A stretch of DNA of 12,243 nt from Lachnospiraceae bacterium (GTDB taxonomy: Bacteria; Bacillota; Clostridia; Lachnospirales; Lachnospiraceae): the NCBI GenBank assembly GCA_017959525.1, contig JAGDAL010000274.1, positions 1-12,243 on the forward strand. The letters are read 5' to 3'. The notes below the pieces were generated by a model that did not search any database, had not been told where the DNA came from, and saw nothing but the letters and a program-made list of their open reading frames with translations. The stretch's first letter is position 1. Each line of letters opens with the position of its first letter. Position numbers and translations under genes: made by a program. Shown one piece after another: positions 1 to 12,243 of the stretch.

Positions 1-1902
1 GGACTTCCGAAGTTCCGGAACATCAAAATAAGAAGATACCGACGGTCCCTTCAACAATAAATACGGAATCTGTCGCTGTTCAAAGAGCTGATGTAAATGC
101 AACGTTTGCTGCCACAACCGATAATTGTTCATTACCATCTGCTTCGCTGCCGGTTCGGTTAACGGCATCCATTGACGTAGTTCCGGCTGATCATGGCGAT
201 ACAGGTATTCATGAGCAAAGGTAATCAGTCCCTGATTTCTTGCCCAGATAATAGCTGCATGCACCGTTGCTACATCTGCGTCAAAGGTTTCTTCAACATC
301 CGGATTCAACCCACTGCGCAACAGCTGCAGGAAGAATAAATCCCGCTTCGACAAGGATGTGCTCTGTGTTTTTCTCATGCGTGCACGCAGTAACTCTTTT
401 GCCTTCTCTGCTAAGAACTGCAACTCCCGATTCCGGCAATACATGATAAAGAGCAATACATTCGGCACCACAAGGCAGATGACGATACGATACAACAGCA
501 TCAGCCACGGCGTTCCCTCATAGAGGGAACATACCCAATCCGTTAAAAACAACACGCCTGCCGCTACCGGCACGTAACAAAGTATGCGCTTCCAAAACTC
601 CCAGAGGGACGTCTGTAATCGGTACTTATATAGCATGTACGGTTCTACCCAGGCGGAGGTGGTTAAGGTACTGATCACCGTTCCCAGTAACACACCGGCG
701 GTTCCCAAATACCGCGCTAAGATGATGGATACCACCAGATTCACCACTGCTTCCGCAATGGCCTTGTAGCGGTCATACCAAAAGACGCCCAAGGAATCAC
801 GGAATACCAAGATGCCTTCTCTGAGGGATCCTAAGTAGAAGTTCAGGCAGATCATGGCCACGACCGGAACTTCGAAGACATACTGCTCTCCGAAGAACAG
901 AGCCACAAAGAGATTAAAAATCTCAAATAAGCTCACCGCCGCGAAACAGCTGACCCACTGATTGATAAACAAGGTCGCATGGAAAATCCGAGCCAAGCGT
1001 CCCCGCTCCTTGGAGACACCCAGATTGCCAACGCTTGCCATAATGCCCTGGAAGAAGCTTCGTACGATGTTACGAAGACTGGCGGTAATCAACACATAAT
1101 TGGAATACTTACCGACACTGACAATGCCCACGAAAGCAGAAATCAACAGGTTATCCGTGTTATTGACCACCACGTTGCTCATCTTATGCAAGAACATGGC
1201 GCCCACATTTTTGCGGATTTCCTGCTTTTCTTCCTGCGGAAGCGGCGCAACGTTCTTATCCTTCAGATACGGATACAACGCATCCGCCTTCCGGGAAATG
1301 AGAATATTGGTGGTAATTGTAACAACCAGATTAATTGCTAAATACAACAAAAAGTTGTGGGTGAATACCAAAACCAAGATCTGAATCAAATCCTGAATCA
1401 CCCAGGAACCGGTGGTATATAAGGTTCCGATATACGCCAGCTGATGCGCATCCATTAAAGTACGCTTATAGATCATCAAATAGCTGGATACCGCGCTGGC
1501 CAGATAGAACAGATAAATCACCGTCAGATGCTCTACATTTGGCGGGTCCTTGATGATGATATCCATAAACGGAATCAACAGAAGACCCAGTCCCAACACA
1601 ATGCAGGCCACCAGATGATAGAACCGTCGAAACAGCTGCATCAGGCTCTTTTGCTTCTCGATGTCCCCCTCTTCTATCGGTCCGTACAAGGCATAGGTAA
1701 TGGCAGTTCCCACACCCAGTTCCGATAAGGATAAGATAAAAATGATATCCAAAAAGAGACCGTTTACCCCCACATAATCCTTGCTTAAGGTATGGGTGAA
1801 AACGATACGAAGCAAAAAGCCTACCAGTAAATGTATCAATTGTGAAATCAATGCCACCGAGGAATTCCTGGCGGAATGCTCGGTACGACTGCGTGATTCC
1901 AT
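1..1902 (-). CDS. Wzx-like polysaccharide flippase fused to a putative NTP_transf_5-type nucleotidyltransferase domain (3' end outside window)
   Basis: The frame is open from an ATG at 1902 to the window edge: 634 codons with no stop. Residues about 14-490 are a string of hydrophobic helices with the look of the Wzx/MurJ-type (MOP superfamily) flippases that move lipid-linked sugars across the membrane; an early VGVNGLFLDII segment and an LSELGVGTAITYALY segment are typical of clostridial capsule flippases. After a basic linker (about 495-515) comes a helical, non-membrane region (about 517-610) leading to IPYLLLKGP (612-620) and then a YFDVPELRKS segment at the edge. LLKG followed by Y-x-x-P-x-x-R is the pattern expected just before the D-x-D of the NTP_transf_5 family (PF14907 as I recall it), but the D-x-D itself lies outside the window. 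The start is supported by a GGAG at 1914-1917, 11 bases upstream, inside the end of the preceding gene, leaving a 6-base gap. The flippase call is firm; the second domain is inferred from a short motif. Confidence 0.8.
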   Translation of the reverse strand, partial: MESRSRTEHSARNSSVALISQLIHLLVGFLLRIVFTHTLSKDYVGVNGLFLDIIFILSLSELGVGTAITYALYGPIEEGDIEKQKSLMQLFRRFYHLVACIVLGLGLLLIPFMDIIIKDPPNVEHLTVIYLFYLASAVSSYLMIYKRTLMDAHQLAYIGTLYTTGSWVIQDLIQILVLVFTHNFLLYLAINLVVTITTNILISRKADALYPYLKDKNVAPLPQEEKQEIRKNVGAMFLHKMSNVVVNNTDNLLISAFVGIVSVGKYSNYVLITASLRNIVRSFFQGIMASVGNLGVSKERGRLARIFHATLFINQWVSCFAAVSLFEIFNLFVALFFGEQYVFEVPVVAMICLNFYLGSLREGILVFRDSLGVFWYDRYKAIAEAVVNLVVSIILARYLGTAGVLLGTVISTLTTSAWVEPYMLYKYRLQTSLWEFWKRILCYVPVAAGVLFLTDWVCSLYEGTPWLMLLYRIVICLVVPNVLLFIMYCRNRELQFLAEKAKELLRARMRKTQSTSLSKRDLFFLQLLRSGLNPDVEETFDADVATVHAAIIWARNQGLITFAHEYLYRHDQPELRQWMPLTEPAAKQMVMNNYRLWQQTLHLHQLFEQRQIPYLLLKGPSVSSYFDVPELRKS

Positions 1903-3357: not shown

Positions 3358-4510
3358 GTGTTGATTCTCCTATACAAAAACGTTCTTCCCCTTCATTTGC
3401 AAAACGAACCGGATATCGATTCTGCATGGTACCGCAAAAATAGACAGACCCGCTAATGGATGGACTATGCAATACCACCTCTTTGCCGGCCGGCAACTGT
3501 GAAATCTCCCAACGGGCCAAAACTGCGTCCGCTTCATCTACAAGCTTTACCTCCATAGGAACCACCAAATCTCCCCAACCAACATTGGAAAGTGTGATAT
3601 CCAACGAATCGCCCCGTCGTTCTACCATCTGCACCAGCAGGCGATATCCCATATATTGCTTCACATCCCCTAATATTCCATTCTCCATCAGGTACGCTAG
3701 TGCCTTGGTATCATATTGGTTATTCAAATAGGACAATCGCATCTGACGGAAGGTACTTCGAATCTCATCCTCAGAGAACAGATTCTGCGCTAATCCGCGG
3801 GATAACACTTCGCCTCCCACCGGAAGATGTTTGCAGGCATCCTGCAATACCATCAGTGCCTCCGGTCGTTCCATACGGAAGGTTCCCAAATCGTCATTGG
3901 AACCAAACATGCCATCATCGAATAAGCTCAGGCGCGTATCCTTTTCTCCCCAACGCTGTAACCACTCCACGCGGCGAACAGCTAGAATCGCCTGCGTTCC
4001 AAAGGATCTTCGGAAACAACTATACAGCGAATCCAGAGCATGATCGGTGATGTAACGGGAGCCATGCATCTCACCCCAATTGCCGATGAACAATCCCTGA
4101 TAGCATAAGATCATGGTGTCATAGAGATTGCACACTTCTGCCACCTGGGACATATGGGTCAAAATCAAGGACAGCTCCGTGGGTTCTTTTGCAATGGCAT
4201 TGCCATCAAAATCATAGGCAAAGCGCAGGATGACCTGCTTATCGTATTCCTCAAAAAAGGACAAAATCTCCCCTAATCGCTTGCATGCTTCCTCGGGTAG
4301 CGCTCCTGCACGAAAGGATTCCAAGGAGCATTCCACTAAGCAAAGCGGCTCCTCCTCGTGCAGGCACCAGCGCTGCTCGCCGGCATCAAAAGGCTTGGAT
4401 AAATCGTAGATGTATGGGCGATACCATCCCTGGAACGGATTGATGCATACATCCCCGGAGTCCTTATATTTACTTTTTTTATTCGAGCGAAATCTTCGTA
4501 GAAATTGCAC
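3350..4510 (-). CDS. DUF4874/DUF4832-type protein without signal peptide (paralogue of the next gene)
   Basis: 386 residues with the same motif order as its downstream neighbour: NPFQGWYR (24-31), VILRFAYDFDG (93-103), GEMHGS (146-151), LFDDGMFGS (196-204), DDLGTF (206-211) and a C-terminal LDITLSNVGWG segment. The shared LRF-YD and GEMHGS motifs suggest a TIM-barrel sugar-active fold; Glu147 is the candidate acid/base. Unlike the neighbour it begins with a basic, non-hydrophobic segment (RRFRSNKKSKYK), so as called it would stay in the cytoplasm. The start is a GTG at 4510 with TAGGA at 4518-4522, 7 bases upstream; I see no ATG in frame before the first conserved motif. The gene overlaps the end of the GT2 gene by 32 bases. 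Family membership is recognised from motifs; substrate and reaction are unknown. Confidence 0.77.
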   Translation of the reverse strand: MQFLRRFRSNKKSKYKDSGDVCINPFQGWYRPYIYDLSKPFDAGEQRWCLHEEEPLCLVECSLESFRAGALPEEACKRLGEILSFFEEYDKQVILRFAYDFDGNAIAKEPTELSLILTHMSQVAEVCNLYDTMILCYQGLFIGNWGEMHGSRYITDHALDSLYSCFRRSFGTQAILAVRRVEWLQRWGEKDTRLSLFDDGMFGSNDDLGTFRMERPEALMVLQDACKHLPVGGEVLSRGLAQNLFSEDEIRSTFRQMRLSYLNNQYDTKALAYLMENGILGDVKQYMGYRLLVQMVERRGDSLDITLSNVGWGDLVVPMEVKLVDEADAVLARWEISQLPAGKEVVLHSPSISGSVYFCGTMQNRYPVRFANEGEERFCIGESTHA

Positions 4511-5270
4511 CTTGTGTTCCTACCCCTGCATCCTTTTTCTTAATCTGATACTGGAATGTAATCTGTAACAGAGAACATGCCATGTGGATCATATAACCGA
4601 TGGGCTTCAAGCCGGAATGCATACTCTTTCCGGTTTCTCTGGCATGCATGATGGCCGGAATCTCACGGATGTGAAATCCCAATAACAACATCTGCAATAC
4701 CATATTGGCATCCGGATAACGCTCATCGAAATGACCGTACTTAGAGTAATACAGGAAGGCCGGGAAGCTTAATCCCTGCAATCCGGTGGTCGGATCCATG
4801 ATGCGCACGCCGGTGTGACGACGGATGTAATGACGGAACATGCGAATAGCAAACGCCTTCAGTGCTCCTACCCGAAATTCCGAACTTCCCTCTACGAAGC
4901 GGGAACCAAGGACGATATCCGGGCAGTTGCCGTTTTCGTCCGGCGTTTTTAACTCTTCATAAATCTTAGGAATGTTGCAGACATCGTGCTGTCCGTCTGC
5001 ATCCATCTGAATGACATAATCGTATCTTCTGCGCACCGCGTACTTGTATCCCAGCTGAATGGCGCTGCCATAGCCTAAGTTAAATACGTGGGTAATCACC
5101 TTATAATTTCTTCGCTTGGCAATCCAGCTGGTATTATCGCTGGACGCATCGTTCATAATTAAAATATCTGCAATTTCCCGAATCTCCGGACGCTCCAGAG
5201 AATCAAGCACGTCCTTTATACTCTCTTCTTCGTTGTACGCCGGGATAATGATTAATAGATCCTTCTTCAT
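4479..5270 (-). CDS. GT2 family (DPM1/ArnC-like) glycosyltransferase
   Basis: 263 residues. The N-terminus has the GT-A fold signature LLIIIPAYNEEESI (5-18), then IMNDASSDNT (38-47), a nucleotide-sugar binding HVFNLGYGSAIQLGY segment (61-75) and the metal-binding DADGQHD (90-96, Asp90 and Asp92). GSRF and DPTTGLQG (159-166) follow as in dolichyl/polyprenyl-phosphate sugar synthases, with an MHARETGKSMHS segment (208-219) near the acceptor site. There is at most one weak hydrophobic stretch at about 224-240, so it is likely a peripheral cytoplasmic enzyme. It probably loads a sugar onto polyprenyl phosphate or extends a lipid-linked chain; which of the two cannot be told from sequence. The start has AAGGGG at 5281-5286, 10 bases upstream, and lies inside the 3' end of the GT4 gene. 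It overlaps the next gene by 32 bases. Confidence 0.9.
   Translation of the reverse strand: MKKDLLIIIPAYNEEESIKDVLDSLERPEIREIADILIMNDASSDNTSWIAKRRNYKVITHVFNLGYGSAIQLGYKYAVRRRYDYVIQMDADGQHDVCNIPKIYEELKTPDENGNCPDIVLGSRFVEGSSEFRVGALKAFAIRMFRHYIRRHTGVRIMDPTTGLQGLSFPAFLYYSKYGHFDERYPDANMVLQMLLLGFHIREIPAIMHARETGKSMHSGLKPIGYMIHMACSLLQITFQYQIKKKDAGVGTQGAISTKISLE
4518..4522 (-). promoter_or_regulatory. Ribosome-binding site supporting the GTG start of the first DUF4874/DUF4832 gene
   Basis: TAGGA, 7 bases before the GTG at 4510, within a longer GGGGTAGGA run (4518-4526) inside the end of the GT2 gene. No ATG occurs in frame before the conserved NPFQGWYR motif, so this site fixes the start. Confidence 0.55.
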
Positions 5271-6486
5271 CGTCTTCTAGCCCCTTCAACTTTTTCAGTA
5301 AATCTTCCAATTCCTGATCGTGTTCCACTTCCTTGTGGCACGCCGCTTCTCCCATGCGGGCCCGTGCCTCCGGGTTTTCAATCATAAACTCAATTGCTTC
5401 TGCCACCGCAGCCGGATTCAACGCACAAATCATACCGTCAATGCCATGATTGACTTGTTCCCGATTGCCGTTTACGTCACTGACAATAATCGGACATCCG
5501 AGAATCTGTGCTTCCTGCACCGCAATACTCTTCCCCTCAAAACGTGTGGCATGCACATAGAGATCACACTCCCAATAATACGGATACGGATTGCTGCGCT
5601 TGCCCATGAGGATAAAATCATCCTGCAAACCATTTTGCGCAATCTTACGCTCCAAGTCCTCCCGCATGACGCCTTCTCCCATGGCATACCAGCGGGCATC
5701 ATATCCGTGGGACCGCACCAGGGCCAAGGCCTGGATGGCAATCTCATAGGCTTTTTGCACATTCAACCGACCGACGGTAAGAATGCGATAACCTTCATAA
5801 TCATCTTCGAATCCGGCGCCCTTCATGGCCATCTTCAAGATGCTCTTCCGGTCCAAAATATTGTGGAACACCCGCATCTTCGGCAGGCACTCCGGATGCA
5901 CCTTCAAGAATCCTTGTCGCACCTCGTCGGATACCGCGTAGATTTCGTCGATGGCGTCGTATGCACCCTCATCCAAATCCGTGGTATATCCTGCCATTCC
6001 ATAATCTACATGGACGTATGCAATCTTGTGCTTGGCTTGTACGTGGTTGGCTACATAGTAGGTGGAAGCGCCTTCAATGAAGGACACCGCCAAGTCGTAC
6101 TCTTGGGGAAGACGTCTGGCACCGTCCGCCAACAGCTTCCATAGCAGCTTATCCGGCAGCACACGGCCGGCCTTTTTCATGGCCCGATAGTTCTTGATGC
6201 CATAGGGCAGCCAGGTAAAAAAAGCACCATTCCGGAAAGCCCGGTGCAACGTGCGACAGGCCAATCCAAAATGCCCCTTTGCAGATAGCACCGAATGATT
6301 GCTATGCATGCGATTGATGACATTCACATACCGCGGCACCCGGTCGAACAATTCGCCTTGTCCCAACATGACGTACAAATCAATATCGTATTCCCTTGGG
6401 TCTATTTTCTGAAGCATGGACACTAGCGCCGTTTCCGCCCCGGCTTGGCCCATGGTATTCATGACAAATAAAATGGAAGACTTCAT
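5203..6486 (-). CDS. GT4 family glycosyltransferase
   Basis: 427 residues with a GT-B architecture. The N-terminal half carries an AGAETALVSML segment (15-25), and a SFIEGASTYYVAN segment (135-147) precedes the KIAYVHVDYG acceptor-side strand (154-163). The C-terminal half has ILTVGRLNVQKAYEIAI (235-251), the nucleotide-sugar pocket, and a classic E-x7-E pair, Glu317 and Glu325, in FEGKSIAVQEA. GT4 enzymes are retaining transferases using NDP-sugars in the cytoplasm; donor and acceptor are unknown here. The ATG overlaps the stop of the 55-residue upstream ORF as TAATG (6484-6488), with AAGGTGA at 6494-6500, 7 bases upstream, so translation is probably coupled. The last 25 residues, after KKLKG, read through the beginning of the GT2 gene in another frame (68-base overlap) and look like an unconserved extension. 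Confidence 0.9.
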   Translation of the reverse strand: MKSSILFVMNTMGQAGAETALVSMLQKIDPREYDIDLYVMLGQGELFDRVPRYVNVINRMHSNHSVLSAKGHFGLACRTLHRAFRNGAFFTWLPYGIKNYRAMKKAGRVLPDKLLWKLLADGARRLPQEYDLAVSFIEGASTYYVANHVQAKHKIAYVHVDYGMAGYTTDLDEGAYDAIDEIYAVSDEVRQGFLKVHPECLPKMRVFHNILDRKSILKMAMKGAGFEDDYEGYRILTVGRLNVQKAYEIAIQALALVRSHGYDARWYAMGEGVMREDLERKIAQNGLQDDFILMGKRSNPYPYYWECDLYVHATRFEGKSIAVQEAQILGCPIIVSDVNGNREQVNHGIDGMICALNPAAVAEAIEFMIENPEARARMGEAACHKEVEHDQELEDLLKKLKGLEDDEEGSINHYPGVQRRREYKGRA

Positions 6487-6653
6487 TATTGCATCACCTT
6501 ATCAATCTTTTTGCGCATGTGTTCGTTTTCCTGATTAAGTAAGGATACCTGCATGGCAAGCTCCTGAATCTTGCGTTTTAAGACGCGAATGGTGTGGAAG
6601 CCAAACAATAGCGCGACAGCAAGGATTGCAATGGCAAGTTCTAATAATTTCAT
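6486..6653 (-). CDS. 55-residue single-pass membrane protein with parallel coiled coil
   Basis: I do not recognise a family. The ORF begins at an ATG (6653) overlapping the pelG stop as ATGA (6650-6653) and ends at a TAA overlapping the next ATG as TAATG (6484-6488). AAAGGGGG at 6661-6668 sits 7 bases upstream. Residues 3-20 form a hydrophobic helix (LLELAIAILAVALLFGF), followed by Arg23, Lys26, Arg27 and Lys28, which by the positive-inside rule would put the C-terminus in the cytoplasm. Residues 25-53 give an uninterrupted heptad series: 25, 29, 32, 36, 39, 43, 46, 50, 53 are L, I, L, V, L, N, M, I, V. Asn43 falls in an a position, as in parallel dimeric zippers. It fills the whole space between pelG and the GT4 gene with stop/start coupling at both ends, strong evidence that it is translated. 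A scaffold or regulatory role for the membrane glycosyltransferase complex is inference. Confidence 0.8.
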   Translation of the reverse strand: MKLLELAIAILAVALLFGFHTIRVLKRKIQELAMQVSLLNQENEHMRKKIDKVMQ

Positions 6654-8098
6654 TCTTCTTCCCCCTTTACATAAACAAGGTCCGACGGGCGAGCTCCCCG
6701 TCCATGCTCTAACAAATGCGCCTCACAGAAAATGTGTCGTTCCAGATTCCGTTCTACCCAACGAAGACGCAAGTAACCAATGGTCCATCCGATAAATGCG
6801 CCGAACACCAATCCCACGCCATACCAGATTTCCTGTAAATGGGTGGCCCAGATAGAAAAGGCCACATCAGAAACCAAGAAGCCCACCGCAATCAGCACGG
6901 CTCCGGTTAAATCATTGTAGTAATATAAGAAATTCAGGCAGGCATACATCAAAAACAAAATGAAGTAGCCGGCTGCCAAGGAAGGATAAATCTGCATCAC
7001 CAATCCTGAGATTCCAAGCTGTGGCATCATAACCACAAAGAACAAAAACAGGATGACGGAAATAATAAACTGGATACGCACCAGCCCCATCAGCTCCACC
7101 GACAACTGGCGAAACATCCGATTCTGTGCTGCCTCAATATCCTCCAAACGTCCACCGATGACCATCTCCGAGTACTTGCGGTACCGATAGGTGAAGCGGC
7201 GCTCCACGCTACTGATGAAAATGGTGGTGGCGGAAATATTGGTAATCAAGGCCAAAAAGGTTGCCATATCAAACGGCTGGGCACAAATAAAGGTATGTGC
7301 CACTTCCATATGCATATCCGTGGTCCAGAACACGAAGTTGTGGCTGTACAATCCCACGATATAAGCGGTATTGGCAACAATCAGCTGCCAGTACTTCTTG
7401 AAGTGATGATTGATGGCGGTATAGTTGTGACTGTTGTCCCGGAAGTAACTGAGTAACTGTCCATACTCCAAGGCCGCTGTCAGCAGGAATCCCACACCAA
7501 TGCCGCTTAACATGGCATAGATGGTATCCACATGAAACCAGTCATGTAGCGCCCAGGCCAACAACAGACCGATGCCAAGTCCAATCAAATAAAACAGTGC
7601 AATCTTGGCATAGTCCTTGCAGATGGATAAGTAGGTCATACAATAAAAGGTCAAAATCAATCCAAAGCAACTGCCAAAGGAAATCAGGATAAATACCGGA
7701 TCTACCCCACCCACACGATACTCATGAATAAAAAACGGTACCATGGGAATGAACGCCATCACTACAATGATCACCAGGCAATAATAGAAGCAGGCCATGA
7801 TCTCGCTGTAGCGTTCCTCAAAAATCACATCCGACATGAAGCGGGAAATCACCGCATTCAAGGTGGACGTTACAATCAAGGAGTAGATAAAAATATAGAG
7901 CACCGTACAGGAAAACAATTCCCTTCTGGCATAATCCAACTCCCGAAAATCCAAAAGATAACTCATGCCCCAAATCATCAACATACCGATAATCATAGGT
8001 GCAATGGTAATGATCATACTGTAGCTGATACCGCTAATGGTGGTCAGTAGTGTATTCTTTTCGTATAACTTATTGAGCTTAACTCCAATTCCCGCCAT
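6650..8098 (-). CDS. pelG: PelG, membrane subunit of the Pel polysaccharide synthase/transporter
   Basis: 482 residues, about 12 predicted membrane helices (first at residues about 18-45, last near 440-458), and a short charged cytoplasmic tail. The opening, GIGVKLNKLYEKNTLL followed by an SGISYSMIITIAPMIIG helix, is the PelG hallmark; P. aeruginosa PelG is about 456 residues. Also characteristic are the SRFMSDVIFEERYSEI loop after helix 2 and the FTYRYRKYSEMVIGG loop near 310. PelG belongs to the MOP flippase superfamily and forms the inner-membrane export path for Pel with PelF and, in known systems, PelD and PelE. It follows pelF after 6 bases, with AAAGGAG at 8111-8117 inside pelF, 12 bases from the ATG. 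Its stop overlaps the start of the 55-residue ORF. The identification is confident from overall sequence character and the adjacent pelF. Confidence 0.93.
   Translation of the reverse strand: MAGIGVKLNKLYEKNTLLTTISGISYSMIITIAPMIIGMLMIWGMSYLLDFRELDYARRELFSCTVLYIFIYSLIVTSTLNAVISRFMSDVIFEERYSEIMACFYYCLVIIVVMAFIPMVPFFIHEYRVGGVDPVFILISFGSCFGLILTFYCMTYLSICKDYAKIALFYLIGLGIGLLLAWALHDWFHVDTIYAMLSGIGVGFLLTAALEYGQLLSYFRDNSHNYTAINHHFKKYWQLIVANTAYIVGLYSHNFVFWTTDMHMEVAHTFICAQPFDMATFLALITNISATTIFISSVERRFTYRYRKYSEMVIGGRLEDIEAAQNRMFRQLSVELMGLVRIQFIISVILFLFFVVMMPQLGISGLVMQIYPSLAAGYFILFLMYACLNFLYYYNDLTGAVLIAVGFLVSDVAFSIWATHLQEIWYGVGLVFGAFIGWTIGYLRLRWVERNLERHIFCEAHLLEHGRGARPSDLVYVKGEEE
6661..6668 (-). promoter_or_regulatory. 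Ribosome-binding site of the 55-residue ORF
   Basis: AAAGGGGG inside the last codons of pelG, 7 bases before the ATG at 6653. Its good placement, together with the ATGA stop/start overlap, is the main evidence that the small ORF is translated. Confidence 0.7.
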
Positions 8099-8104
8099 GG
8101 GTTG

Positions 8105-9523
8105 CTACATCTCCTTTGACGCCTCAAAATCCTGATAGATCTTGCGGTACTGATTCTTCATATCTTCAATCTTGTATTTTTGCATGACGCGCTGATATCC
8201 CACTTCGCCCATCTTCTGAACCATGTGTGGGCTGCGTCCTAGATTCACCATCGCAATGGTAATCTCTTCCACATTCATAATGTGGGTTAAAATGCCGGCT
8301 TCACCTAAGCCATCGCCTTCGCCGTAAATCAAGCCTCTGCAATTACCAACGTCTGTTGCAATTACCGGTTTTTTCGCAGCGAATCCTTCTAGGATGGTCA
8401 GTGGCTGGCCTTCACTGATACTGGTTAAAATCGTAAAATCCATGCGACCGATATACTCTGCCGTGTTCACTCTTCCGGTAAACACCACATCCGGAATGTG
8501 CATGGTATCCACCAATTCGAAACACTCCTTGGCATACTCTTCATCTTCATCCGTCGGTCCCATAATCCAAAGCTTCAGATTCGGCACCTTCTCTTTGGCA
8601 TATCCGAAGGCACGAATCATGGTCTTAATATCCTTAATTGGAGTCACACGGGCAACGGCGCCTACATTCACAAAGCCTTCATCCTCCGGAAGTTTGCCCG
8701 GTGCAGCCTCGAAGCGCTGGGTCGGGATTCCGTTGGGTGTTACCAGAGTCTTATGTGGCGGACAGCCCAATTCCATCTGCAGTTCTTTCGCATGCTCATA
8801 CAAACTGGTCACCAAATCTGCCCGCTGATAAGCCACCAAGGACATCTTACGGAACTGTTCAATCCAGATATTTTTATAAATGCCCTTTACCCAAGATGCC
8901 CGGATAATCTCTTCCTCACGCTCACGGGTATAGATGCCGTGCTCGGATACCAAGAGGCCGCAGCCATACTTCGCTTTTGCCATGGCACCAAGCAGTCCGG
9001 CATAACCGGTAGCGACACAATGGTACAAATCCGCCTGCGGTACATGAAACTGCATAATATGAAACATGGGCAGATAAATCGAGCGCATGGTCCATAAAAA
9101 ATCGGAAAACGCCACGTCGGAATAATGGGTGCGATAACACTCTTTCACCGCCTGCAAATAGTCATAGCCCATCAGAAGATCATCCAACGATACCTTCGGA
9201 TCTTCCAATAAAGCAAACAGACGCTCCCAATCGATTTCTTCATTTAGAAGCAAGCTGCGCATAGCCTGCATATCCTTGGAACTTAACTGGAATCGACCGC
9301 CCTTTTTCTGGGTCCAATCCAAATCATTCAAATACACTTCGTATACTTCCGTCACATTCTCCGGAAGCTCGTACTTAAATACTCCGCGGTTGCTGCGGTC
9401 CGCCACAATGGCCAATATGATGAATTCGTATTCCGGGAAGGACTGTATCATGCTGTGAATCCAGCTGGATACACCTCCAACGACATAAGGGTAACAACCC
9501 TCTGCCACCATACATATTTTCAT
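8105..9523 (-). CDS. pelF: PelF, GT4 glycosyltransferase of Pel polysaccharide synthesis
   Basis: 472 residues from the chosen ATG at 9523. The N-terminal MVAEGCYPYVVGGVSSWIHS (5-24) is the PelF signature, and the family's LSEHGIYTRERE (191-202 region) follows. The donor site contains VGAVARVTPIKDIKTMI (287-303) and an E-x7-E pair, Glu371 and Glu379, in SEGQPLTILEG. PelF is a soluble, retaining GT-B enzyme that polymerises an N-acetylhexosamine polymer (GalNAc/GlcNAc in studied Pel) from UDP-sugar at the cytoplasmic face, delivering it to PelG. An in-frame ATG six codons earlier (9541) is rejected because GGAGG at 9535-9539 is ideally placed 11 bases before 9523 and family alignment begins with MKI. 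The gene starts 8 bases after the upstream stop; its ribosome site covers that stop. Confidence 0.95.
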   Translation of the reverse strand: MKICMVAEGCYPYVVGGVSSWIHSMIQSFPEYEFIILAIVADRSNRGVFKYELPENVTEVYEVYLNDLDWTQKKGGRFQLSSKDMQAMRSLLLNEEIDWERLFALLEDPKVSLDDLLMGYDYLQAVKECYRTHYSDVAFSDFLWTMRSIYLPMFHIMQFHVPQADLYHCVATGYAGLLGAMAKAKYGCGLLVSEHGIYTREREEEIIRASWVKGIYKNIWIEQFRKMSLVAYQRADLVTSLYEHAKELQMELGCPPHKTLVTPNGIPTQRFEAAPGKLPEDEGFVNVGAVARVTPIKDIKTMIRAFGYAKEKVPNLKLWIMGPTDEDEEYAKECFELVDTMHIPDVVFTGRVNTAEYIGRMDFTILTSISEGQPLTILEGFAAKKPVIATDVGNCRGLIYGEGDGLGEAGILTHIMNVEEITIAMVNLGRSPHMVQKMGEVGYQRVMQKYKIEDMKNQYRKIYQDFEASKEM

Positions 9524-9531
9524 TTGAAAAA

Positions 9532-11310
9532 CTACCTCCAAAAGGTCAATTGTGACTTGTTTCTATAATCGATGGACACCGTAGCGTCCGTTGCTTTGAT
9601 CAAATACTGACCGTCATCGATGCGGGTGTAGCTGCCGCCTTCCATCTTACGGATGGACTTGGAGCCAAGGCGCACCATAAAATAAGCAGGGTTTGCTTCC
9701 GTTGCATCGGTTGTGATGAGGATACGGTCTCCGTCATCCTCCACGTCATATTCCAACTGCATATACCGGTTACATCTGCGGGCCGCTTCTGTCACCGTGG
9801 TTTCGTCAAAATAGTTATAGTCCTGCCAATAGGTATTGGTGTAACGGGAGAACCGATCGAATACCTTCTCCCACTGATCCTCCTTGGACTGCGGATACAA
9901 GATTTCGGAAAAATCCTGTCCAATCACGGAGTATCCAAGCACCGTCTGAAAGCTCTTGGTACGCAAATCTTCCCGATAGGTATGAGAAGATCCGTTGTTG
10001 GTGATCTGTAAGATCTGCTTGCCATCAACCGCATCTACCATATTCCGGTTTGGATCGTAATCCGAAAGCATCGCGATAATATCCGAATAGCCGGCATTAT
10101 CCAGTGCCTCGGCTGTCTCCCTTGGATCTAGATCCTTAACATAGGCAAATAACATGCGATAGTCCTTGGCATGTTGTTTATAAAACAAACCATCTTCTGC
10201 CAGCTTCTCTTCTAATGTGATATCACCGGCATAATCCAGGCTAATACCTGCTTCTCCATGCTGCTCTCGTAACAGCTGCTGGTAATAGGCAAGAGCCTCT
10301 CCGTTTGGTGCGCCAGCTGTCTTGTAGTTATACTTCGGAGCTAAGCACACACTTGGATAGGAATGGTTATGGGCAGATACGGCCGCAATACCCGGCCATA
10401 CCAAATCTCTTAACACGGCTGCAGAATCTCTGGAATAGACTTCCCGTAGCTTCTCGGAATTCTCATCCGCGAAGGTCGGATAATTGAGTGCCACCAGATT
10501 CTGAGTATTAATGACCGGATATACATAACAATCATAGAGGTCGCTCTCCATGGCCGTTAACATACCAAGTCCGATATCACTGTTCATGAAATCACTGTTT
10601 ACCGCAAACACCGTATTCTCGCCGCTGCGATAACACCAAATCACCGGAGGCTTATAGGCAGCATCCGTATCGTCATATCCCTTCGGAAGGATGCCATCCA
10701 TATAGACCTTGGAACCGGAATTTAAGATGAACCAGGGAATGGTAAGGTCCAAATCCTGTTGCTTCTTCTCTTCCTTCGTCCGTGCTTCATAGATAACCTT
10801 GCCGCCCACCAGGAATCCATCGTATAAGGTCATACCGGACAGCTTGATGGACTCTTTTTGAATCGTTGCGATACCAAGCAGATTTGCAAGCTCGGTATGG
10901 GATTGCAACATAGCTACGGAAGGCAGGCTTCCAAATACCAATGGGATACGATTCTGTTGGAATTCCAATAAGGTCCCAATCTCATCCTCTTCCAAGGATG
11001 CACCGTCCACCAACACCATGGCATAGGTGGTATCCTCTCCTACCTCGGTATCCAATTGATACCGGCGATAGGTACACCACTGTTTTGCCATCTGCTCCAT
11101 CTCGTCAGATGCACCAAGATAGAGCATGGTTCCTTCCGTTGGATGGTCAAGCTCTGCAAAGCTTACGGCCGAGAACCCACTTCGGTCAAAATCATATTCA
11201 TTGATTTCGTAGTGGGACAAGGCAACCTTCGCTGCCCCGGAAAACAGGAACAGGAAGAAGACCATGGCCATCATAATTGTGATAGAAATATAATTTCTTC
11301 GGCTAATCAT
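9532..11310 (-). CDS. Membrane-anchored DUF2194-like protein, probable PelA counterpart
   Basis: 592 residues from the ATG at 11310. A signal-anchor helix (about 7-24, after ISRRN) places the rest outside the membrane. Residues about 50-190 alternate strands and helices in a Rossmann/glutamine-amidotransferase-like pattern (AMVLVDGASLEEDEIG, IPLVFGSLPSVAML, YDGFLVGGKVIYE). The region 330-520 contains AVSAHNHSYPSVCLAPKYNY and a YAYVKDLDPRETAEAL-like helix block, and the end (about 520-592) looks like a small beta domain. I assign DUF2194 with moderate confidence; that family accompanies pelF/pelG in Firmicutes as I recall. I do not see a TFDDG-type NodB motif, so deacetylase activity is doubtful. 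The frame stays open further upstream (to 11406), but that would overlap the previous gene by 104 bases and insert residues before the anchor. The ATG overlaps the previous stop by 8 bases; a GGGGAG at 11327-11332 lies 16 bases away, unusually far. Confidence 0.68.
   Translation of the reverse strand: MISRRNYISITIMMAMVFFLFLFSGAAKVALSHYEINEYDFDRSGFSAVSFAELDHPTEGTMLYLGASDEMEQMAKQWCTYRRYQLDTEVGEDTTYAMVLVDGASLEEDEIGTLLEFQQNRIPLVFGSLPSVAMLQSHTELANLLGIATIQKESIKLSGMTLYDGFLVGGKVIYEARTKEEKKQQDLDLTIPWFILNSGSKVYMDGILPKGYDDTDAAYKPPVIWCYRSGENTVFAVNSDFMNSDIGLGMLTAMESDLYDCYVYPVINTQNLVALNYPTFADENSEKLREVYSRDSAAVLRDLVWPGIAAVSAHNHSYPSVCLAPKYNYKTAGAPNGEALAYYQQLLREQHGEAGISLDYAGDITLEEKLAEDGLFYKQHAKDYRMLFAYVKDLDPRETAEALDNAGYSDIIAMLSDYDPNRNMVDAVDGKQILQITNNGSSHTYREDLRTKSFQTVLGYSVIGQDFSEILYPQSKEDQWEKVFDRFSRYTNTYWQDYNYFDETTVTEAARRCNRYMQLEYDVEDDGDRILITTDATEANPAYFMVRLGSKSIRKMEGGSYTRIDDGQYLIKATDATVSIDYRNKSQLTFWR
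9535..9539 (-). promoter_or_regulatory. Ribosome-binding site of pelF, decides the start
   Basis: GGAGG formed by the final TGG AGG TAG codons of the preceding gene. It lies 11 bases before the ATG at 9523 and downstream of the alternative in-frame ATG at 9541, which it would not serve. Confidence 0.8.
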
Positions 11311-12243
11311 TGACTGTAATATTTTTCTCCCCACAATGGTTGTATCCGTAATCGATACATAAATCGTACAAACTGTAAGTATTCTGATGAATGCGATAGC
11401 AAGCAAACTTCGAATCCGAATAGTAGGTGCTCACCGCATCCGGATGTAACTGCTGAAATGCTTCCATCCAGTAATACAGCTTCGACATACAGATCCATCG
11501 ATTCTCGGTGTAATAGATGGATAATCCTGTAATGTCCGGAAGGGTCCGCTTAGCGCCCTCCTTGGAAATCCGCTGCCCACTGTCGGCATAACTTCCGTAA
11601 TAATCTAACGGAACTTTTTCCACAAATACATAGATATCTTCCGTTGGAATGAACAAATGCCCCTTATCCACCGTGGTCAAATCTTCCACGGCTGCATCGC
11701 TGTAATCCTCTCCGCGATACAAGGCCAGGTGCTTTAGCAGCGAGTAAATCTCATAATGGTATCCCAACTCTTCCACCATCTGCACTTCGTCGTTAGCGGA
11801 AATGATGGTATAGGTATGCGGATCACTGTTTTCAATAATGTTGGTCAGGCACGTAATAGCCTGCGGATATTCAAAACTGTCTGCTCCCATGGGCTGGCGT
11901 ACGAGATTACCACCATAGGTAAGCACCAATACACTACATCCAAGTAAGATGGATACTTCTCTGGTAATGCCAGCCTTGTGATGCCACTGTTGTAAGTACA
12001 ACAGCACACCGGCTACCACATAGATTAGTACCACCGGCACCATATAATAGAAAAAGATACGTCCTCGGTTGGTATCCATAATGATCGGCAGCTGCAAAAT
12101 TCCGGCAGAGCACATGAGAATCAATGCCCCGTAGCCGAAGCCAAGGGAGATTCCGATGCGACCGTATGTTACGGACCAGCGGTAGAACAAAACAGAACCT
12201 GCCATCTCCACCACAAACAGCCAGAGGAAAAAGGACGGATGCA
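11303..12243 (-). CDS. Polytopic membrane protein with C-terminal soluble domain (5' end outside window)
   Basis: The last 312 codons of a longer gene are visible; the frame is open to the window edge and its first visible residues (HPSFFLWLFVVEM) are hydrophobic. Four helices can be seen at about visible residues 3-24, 33-53, 72-92 and 107-125, followed by about 180 residues of soluble sequence, with many Tyr and acidic residues and no recognised motif. The layout (many helices, then an extracytoplasmic tail after a HTYTIISANDEVQMVEELGY segment) resembles GT-C type glycosyltransferases or membrane proteins of cell-envelope glycan clusters, but I cannot assign a family from this part. It is not an evident PelD or PelE: no GAF or GGDEF motif and no tetratricopeptide pattern is seen. 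Its stop overlaps the next start by 8 bases, so it belongs to the same operon. Confidence 0.75.
   Translation of the reverse strand, partial: HPSFFLWLFVVEMAGSVLFYRWSVTYGRIGISLGFGYGALILMCSAGILQLPIIMDTNRGRIFFYYMVPVVLIYVVAGVLLYLQQWHHKAGITREVSILLGCSVLVLTYGGNLVRQPMGADSFEYPQAITCLTNIIENSDPHTYTIISANDEVQMVEELGYHYEIYSLLKHLALYRGEDYSDAAVEDLTTVDKGHLFIPTEDIYVFVEKVPLDYYGSYADSGQRISKEGAKRTLPDITGLSIYYTENRWICMSKLYYWMEAFQQLHPDAVSTYYSDSKFACYRIHQNTYSLYDLCIDYGYNHCGEKNITVND

Follow-up and report, generated by a model that had tools for sequence, protein, structure and literature searches.

A 55-residue membrane protein encoded beside pelG is a strongly reduced relative of DUF2304-type glycosyltransferase subunits

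What does a reading frame for 55 residues contribute to a pel operon when it sits between pelG and a GT4 glycosyltransferase gene? The frame lies in a 12,243-nucleotide stretch of Lachnospiraceae DNA (hereafter the window), which is a whole contig (C258) of a genome that is 71% complete. Length alone makes an ORF of 45–60 aa unremarkable, since 67 ORFs in the window reach at least 45 aa (ORF list), mostly by chance. The features described in the initial annotation are all present, however. The frame runs from ATG to TAA, overlaps the pelG stop at ATGA and the GT4 start at TAATG, and is directly preceded by a purine-rich GGGGG run resembling a ribosome site. Its product has one strongly hydrophobic segment (best 19-residue Kyte-Doolittle mean 2.26; 2.74 and 2.94 in two congeners), followed by a basic patch (R23/K26/R27/K28) and by the nine claimed a/d heptad positions (L25, I29, L32, V36, L39, N43, M46, I50 and V53), with N43 at an a position. 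An AlphaFold2 single-chain model gives one helix over residues 2–54 (mean pLDDT 96.2), and the positive collar suggests that its tail would face the cytoplasm. These observations support a small protein with one membrane helix, tightly encoded between pelG and the glycosyltransferases (Table 1). An NCBIfam search with the microprotein returned no match.

Table 1 Features of the pel operon discussed here, in positions of the window
Feature	Position	Strand	Evidence
55-residue microprotein, reduced DUF2304 (GacJ/WpsB)-type subunit	6486..6653	minus	ORF, two congeners, held-out profile
Membrane helix, residues 1–22	6588..6653	minus	Kyte-Doolittle, codon comparison, AlphaFold2 model
Invariant core, residues 23–44, basic collar and conserved cytoplasmic helix	6522..6587	minus	Codon comparison, 38-member alignment
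GT2, proposed partner enzyme	4479..5270	minus	PF00535
GT4 family glycosyltransferase, next gene	5203..6486	minus	PF00534/PF13692
pelG	6650..8098	minus	PF16933, 452.5 bits
pelF, start codon not resolved	8105..9541	minus	NF038011, 380.6 bits vs cut-off 100

A short ORF between pelG and the next gene, which the initial annotation had proposed to look for in relatives, was found in two congeners. It is thus present in three of the four genomes compared for the genus (that of the window, G001 and G003), always between pelG and GT4; the fourth, G002, has no pelG match. The ORF starts at −4 relative to the pelG stop in the window, at −7 with a GTG in G001 and at +2 in G003, and its end overlaps GT4 by one base in the window, stops two bases short of it in G001 and overlaps it by four bases in G003. 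The exact overlaps with the neighbours are therefore not conserved across the three species.

The protein itself is conserved. Core residues 23–44 are identical in all three species with silent variation in 14 of the 22 codons, and the stretch that encodes them overlaps neither pelG nor GT4. Within this core we counted nine synonymous and no non-synonymous differences between the window and G001, 14 and none between G001 and G003, and six and one between the window and G003, where the single non-synonymous count is a product of path averaging between two leucine codons and no residue is changed. Given about 13.5 synonymous sites among 66, the chance of nine silent changes out of nine is ~6e-7. 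The membrane half (residues 1–22) varies freely in sequence yet stays hydrophobic, with pN/pS of 0.66–1.0 as raw proportions. In the same species pairs pS is 0.66–0.81 for pelG, GT2 and GT4, and so the three species are well separated. The substitution pattern that had been named as a possible refutation shows protein constraint in the core. Because the core residues are unchanged, their codons silently varied and the stretch free of neighbour overlap, the ORF is a real gene under protein constraint, and a chance ORF is ruled out.

To place this gene among its relatives, we compared 78 pel loci, comprising the window, 70 fetched stretches and seven of nine further loci, the remaining two apparently being G001 and G003 again. 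Matches were obtained in 72 of 397 genomes; very weak, fragmentary and contig-end matches (G203, G360, G116, G118, G266) were left out, as were second weak matches, and no two PelG ends are identical among the 78 loci. The slot between pelG and GT4 is occupied in 38 of them. In 35 the layout is pelG-[X]-GT4-GT2 with an X of 118–160 residues, and the remaining three carry the short form. Each of the 35 long proteins reaches E <= 0.01 against PF10066 (DUF2304), many of them weakly and the best at 2.5e-11, and the three short ones, including that of the window, do not match it. The string ELAMQVSLLNQENE occurs letter for letter in eight of the 35 long proteins, and the tail is the same or similar in all 35. 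A profile built from the long proteins alone scores the window ORF at 43.7 bits (E 1.2e-12) and the other two short proteins at E 1.8e-15 and 2.3e-13, compared with E 0.0088 for the best of 900 shuffles. An iterative search was left out of the evidence because the short proteins had entered its training set. The microprotein thus shares ancestry with the long DUF2304 proteins of the same slot.

The link to DUF2304 at large runs through these Pel-type long forms, because a profile of 28 canonical DUF2304 proteins scores the short forms at E 0.05–0.1, barely better than the best shuffle (0.19). The same profile scores 34 of the 35 long forms at E 0.0022 or better, failing on L061 (E 2.9), and a profile-profile comparison of the long forms with canonical DUF2304 aligns 122 columns at 98.5% probability. 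In a PelG tree of 46 loci the three short loci group together (100/100) and have the long-form locus L080 as their sister (100/99); the short form is therefore derived, apparently once. An order-wide search with the family alignment (392 genomes, a sample in which up to ten candidates per genome were scored) listed 53 matches, among which only that of G000 is short, in an open frame of 78 codons; the others listed have open frames of at least 114 codons. A PF10066 search gave no match in G000, G002 or G003 (G000 being 71% and G003 81% complete), and the microprotein may be the sole protein of DUF2304 type in G000 and G003. Sequence searches for solved relatives of the slot family turned up no known structure, the best matches having E 0.98 and 0.16.

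These comparisons change the picture drawn in the initial annotation, which had taken the microprotein for a Pel component of an undescribed kind. Instead it corresponds, in shortened form, to a DUF2304 protein of GacJ/WpsB type, and its homologues at this position in 35 further pel loci exclude an orphan component. Full membership in DUF2304 was also rejected: the microprotein has no Pfam match and shows one hydrophobic segment and one modelled helix in place of three membrane helices. Since it failed both tests, we class it as a derivative whose mode of action is probably that of DUF2304 proteins. The gene is real and missed by profile libraries, a strongly reduced form of a known kind of glycosyltransferase subunit.

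What did the short form keep? The AlphaFold2 model of the long L080 protein has helices at residues 2–27, 33–51, 55–62 and 64–129 (mean pLDDT 92.1), the layout reported for WpsB, in which two helices are followed by a short one and a long final one (PMC10821137). A Foldseek search of this model against the PDB gave 21 hits, all with E above 0.001 (best 4.4). The microprotein aligns to positions 70–119 of the 130-position long-form profile, gap-free for the window; the alignment of G001 likewise crosses the last membrane helix unbroken, and that of G003 contains a small gap. Since E31 of the window is E97 of L080, residue 1 of the microprotein falls near L080 residue 67, within the fourth helix. 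The first helices have been lost in one genus, and the last membrane helix and its cytoplasmic extension remain. We also considered an internal deletion fusing the first membrane helix to the tail; the gap-free run across the last membrane helix fits loss of the first helices better, although the membrane-helix sequence is too variable for certainty between the two. A natural fusion of DUF2304 with GT2 was also sought; the sole long-frame match inspected, L172 (G841), instead has a DUF2304 gene whose open frame continues into a polymerase-like, polytopic membrane protein.

Conservation in the retained segment is not confined to the coiled-coil stripe. In the 38-member alignment E31 and L38, both at heptad c positions, are invariant, and E42 (g), A33 (e) and S37 (b) are 88–93% conserved; over residues 24–50 the mean conservation is 3.00 bits at a/d positions and 2.66 bits at the others. 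Packing through a/d positions alone therefore leaves the conserved face unexplained. At two positions that are mostly conserved in the long forms the short forms have changed, from S to R at 23 and from N to I at 29. The WpsA/WpsB contact modelled in the literature joins WpsB 93–115 to WpsA 58–87 (PMC10821137). In L123, a canonical DUF2304 protein of 115 residues, positions 93–115 form the tail that follows the last membrane helix. By length and layout, the WpsB contact segment would thus correspond to the conserved core of the microprotein.

In an effort to identify the partner of the slot protein, we recorded which genes accompany it, calling GT2 and GT4 by phmmer matches of >100 bits to the window genes (L103, with a 55-bit GT2 match, was counted as having none). 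A DUF2304-type gene is present in 45 of the 45 pel loci with a GT2 and in 0 of the 33 without. All 38 loci with a slot protein carry both GT4 and GT2 downstream. Seven further loci have the GT2 upstream of a DUF2194 gene and the DUF2304 gene 5.2–6.9 kb further upstream of the GT2, and six of these seven have no GT4 match. These seven (L149–L155) represent a second pel layout; the PelG tree includes six of them, which together make up one side of a branch. In the 33 loci that lack a GT2, the cluster span read contained no DUF2304 gene; it extended at most about 8 kb downstream and 16 kb upstream, and was limited by contig ends in several (for example L094, L099, L115). Extension upstream by up to 10 kb, which covered 29 of the 33 (L083, L089, L090 and L103 start at or near a contig start), revealed neither DUF2304 nor GT2. 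Many of these genomes carry DUF2304 genes elsewhere. Two loci at separate places in the PelG tree, L064 and L076, have a GT4 and neither a GT2 nor a DUF2304 gene in the cluster, and in both genomes the single DUF2304 match lies directly after another GT2 elsewhere. A GT2 match lies within about 1.5 kb in 26 of 30 high-scoring DUF2304 loci of the family. From the co-occurrence counts together with the GT4-only and GT4-less loci, we conclude that the DUF2304 gene follows GT2 rather than GT4 or pelG. The likeliest partner of the microprotein is therefore the GT2 two genes downstream, and not PelG.

The best NCBIfam match of this GT2 is PpgS, polyprenyl-phospho-GalNAc synthase (NF058614), at 78 bits against a cut-off of 370, and we accordingly do not count the enzyme as a PpgS member; when its sequence is compared with the PDB, dolichol monophosphate mannose synthase ranks first (E 1.1e-8). 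GT2 residues 61–90 are identical in the three short-form species, and their mean identity to the GT2s of long-form loci (0.75) is among the highest of all segments. Such conservation is as expected if the contact surface is unchanged, with the neighbouring DXD motif as a confounder.

With a probability of roughly 0.74, we read the microprotein as a shortened DUF2304 (GacJ/WpsB-type) anchor or activator of the operon's own GT2. Its membrane helix would serve as the anchor, and the conserved face on the cytoplasmic side (E31, L32, A33, S37, L38, L39, E42) may bind the GT2. The microprotein would hold the active site of the enzyme at the membrane and raise synthesis of a polyprenyl-phosphate-linked sugar, which would probably serve to build or decorate a Pel-type polymer; binding, activation, sugar, lipid and recipient polymer are all proposed by analogy. 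Several findings weigh against this reading. Two of the three membrane helices are absent from the short form, and its function could therefore have changed; the adjoining gene is GT4 and not GT2; and the DUF2304 gene of the seven upstream-GT2 loci is kilobases away from the GT2. The missing PF10066 match, the near-shuffle scores with the canonical DUF2304 profile and the short-form changes at positions 23 and 29 count against it as well. The WpsB/WpsA contact is itself a published model. A flippase-like gene in the cluster (window 1–1902 and congeners), under most profile cut-offs, would fit a lipid-carrier route. In the window this minus-strand frame runs on into an NTP_transf_5-like part (549–633, under cut-off) and off the contig, and in the congeners the two parts are separate genes (511 + 424 aa in L010, 518 + 425 aa in L011); the joined frame reflects either a fusion or a lost stop. 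A more far-reaching version of the proposal, which we regard as rather unlikely, is a minimal GT2 activator in which one membrane helix and ~30 cytoplasmic residues do the whole job of the three-helix protein, maybe as a homodimer in which Ile29 replaces the lost packing, the pair holding the glycosyltransferases by PelG and coupling lipid-carrier sugar to Pel synthesis.

Other explanations were weighed against the same data. A protein of the same origin might instead partner the adjacent GT4, or PelG, and recruit GT4 to the Pel synthase. Direct adjacency, tight coupling with both genes and the presence of GT4 in every locus with a slot protein speak for this, but we consider it improbable: L064 and L076 retain GT4 and have no cluster DUF2304 gene, in six loci GT2 and DUF2304 occur together with no match to GT4, and the reported partners of GacJ and WpsB are GT2 enzymes. 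The initial annotation had favored a homodimeric, parallel coiled coil scaffolding the Pel synthase, which would operate independently of any DUF2304 mode. The regular a/d stripe with Asn43 at an a position is in line with such a dimer, as is the short-form Ile29 (Asn in most long forms), which lengthens the hydrophobic stripe. Yet the invariant residues lie off the a/d face, the same tail occurs in three-helix proteins that accompany GT2, and PelD-like and PelE-like genes are present in a congener; we judge the scaffold somewhat less probable still. A homodimer that also binds GT2 is possible.

Loss of over half of the long protein and the loose constraint on the membrane half of the microprotein might also suggest a decaying DUF2304 relic without function, which is very improbable given 22 residues that persist through purely silent change in three well-separated species. 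Least credible of all is a DivIC/FtsB-like cell-division protein. The microprotein does combine one membrane helix with a coiled coil and matches the DivIC family (PF04977) over residues 7–53 at E 0.00042, but the score of 20.5 bits is below the curated cut-off of 28.9 and the genomic context is a polysaccharide operon. The eukaryotic leucine zipper TSC22 scores higher, and the DivIC match is therefore general coiled-coil likeness; TSC22 membership was itself rejected with a score under cut-off.

The suggestion that the microprotein could stand in for part of the PelD/PelE assembly is likewise not borne out. The window contig ends before the PelD/PelE region, and presence was judged from the congener L011. 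Upstream in its cluster lie a 728-aa gene that resembles PelD and has an epimerase domain at its N terminus, and a 313-aa gene with no informative Pfam match, taken as PelE on the basis of its size and place alone. Thus neither PelD nor PelE seems missing, and a substitute for them was rejected. An N-terminal epimerase domain is reported for clostridial and streptococcal PelD, and in Roseburia the pel genes lie within a larger capsule- or teichoic-acid-like cluster (PMC7112168). The legend of the Roseburia pel map in that paper names DUF and GT2 genes, and the map may already show the long DUF2304 gene.

Three further observations concern the wider clusters. Upstream of the DUF2194 gene lies an ~800-aa polytopic membrane protein with no Pfam or NCBIfam match (window 11303–12241; L118:12696–15122, minus strand), with relatives in many of these pel clusters; as a guess, it is possibly a GT-C-like transferase. 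PelG ORFs of 1080–1103 aa, about twice the usual length, occur in L088, L090, L092, L094 and L098, where PelG seems fused to a further part. L017, titled Candidatus Gastranaerophilales, has a PelG that groups among the Lachnospiraceae loci L015, L016 and L018, reflecting either transfer or a mislabelled MAG contig.

For annotation, the analysis accounts for a short ORF overlooked by family profiles. GacJ and WpsB are described as three-helix proteins, and a genus with the last helix alone points to the part that matters. The 55-residue form also offers a compact system in which to study the activation of polyprenyl-phosphate-sugar synthases by such subunits, an issue that arises for human DPM3 too. 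The finding also gives pel clusters a pair resembling GacI and GacJ, suggesting that a lipid carrier is used to build or decorate this Pel-type polymer. In the literature searched, as far as its text was available, we found no description of this microprotein or of a single-helix GacJ.

Among known systems, PelE and PelD resemble the microprotein as membrane proteins encoded in the same type of operon, and differ in that the PelD-like and PelE-positioned genes are separately present upstream in L011. Rv3632 of M. tuberculosis, which we take to be a DUF2304 protein, offers a second likeness as a small membrane protein with a GT2, and the window GT2 has its best NCBIfam match in PpgS. Rv3632 is reported to pair with PpgS (Rv3631) (PMC3485146) and, unlike the microprotein, has three predicted membrane helices (PMC6487176). 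The coiled coil of DPM3 holds DPM1, and its membrane part is reported to be unnecessary for activity (PMC9633384); this eukaryotic protein, a small membrane subunit whose coiled coil holds a GT2-type catalytic subunit, would be alike in mode of working, with no homology claimed. The closest comparison is with the DUF2304 (PF10066) members GacJ of S. pyogenes, WpsB of L. lactis/cremoris and EpaJ of E. faecalis. GacJ and WpsB are described as small membrane subunits that activate polyprenyl-phosphate-sugar GT2 enzymes, boosting GacI and WpsA, which make GlcNAc-P-undecaprenol (PMC8327497, PMC10821137). The microprotein differs from this family in having one membrane helix rather than three, 55 residues rather than about 115–160, no PF10066 match and a GT4 gene between it and the GT2, and it shares with the family the operon slot of the long members, the conserved cytoplasmic helix and the accompanying GT2 of polyprenyl-phosphate-sugar type.
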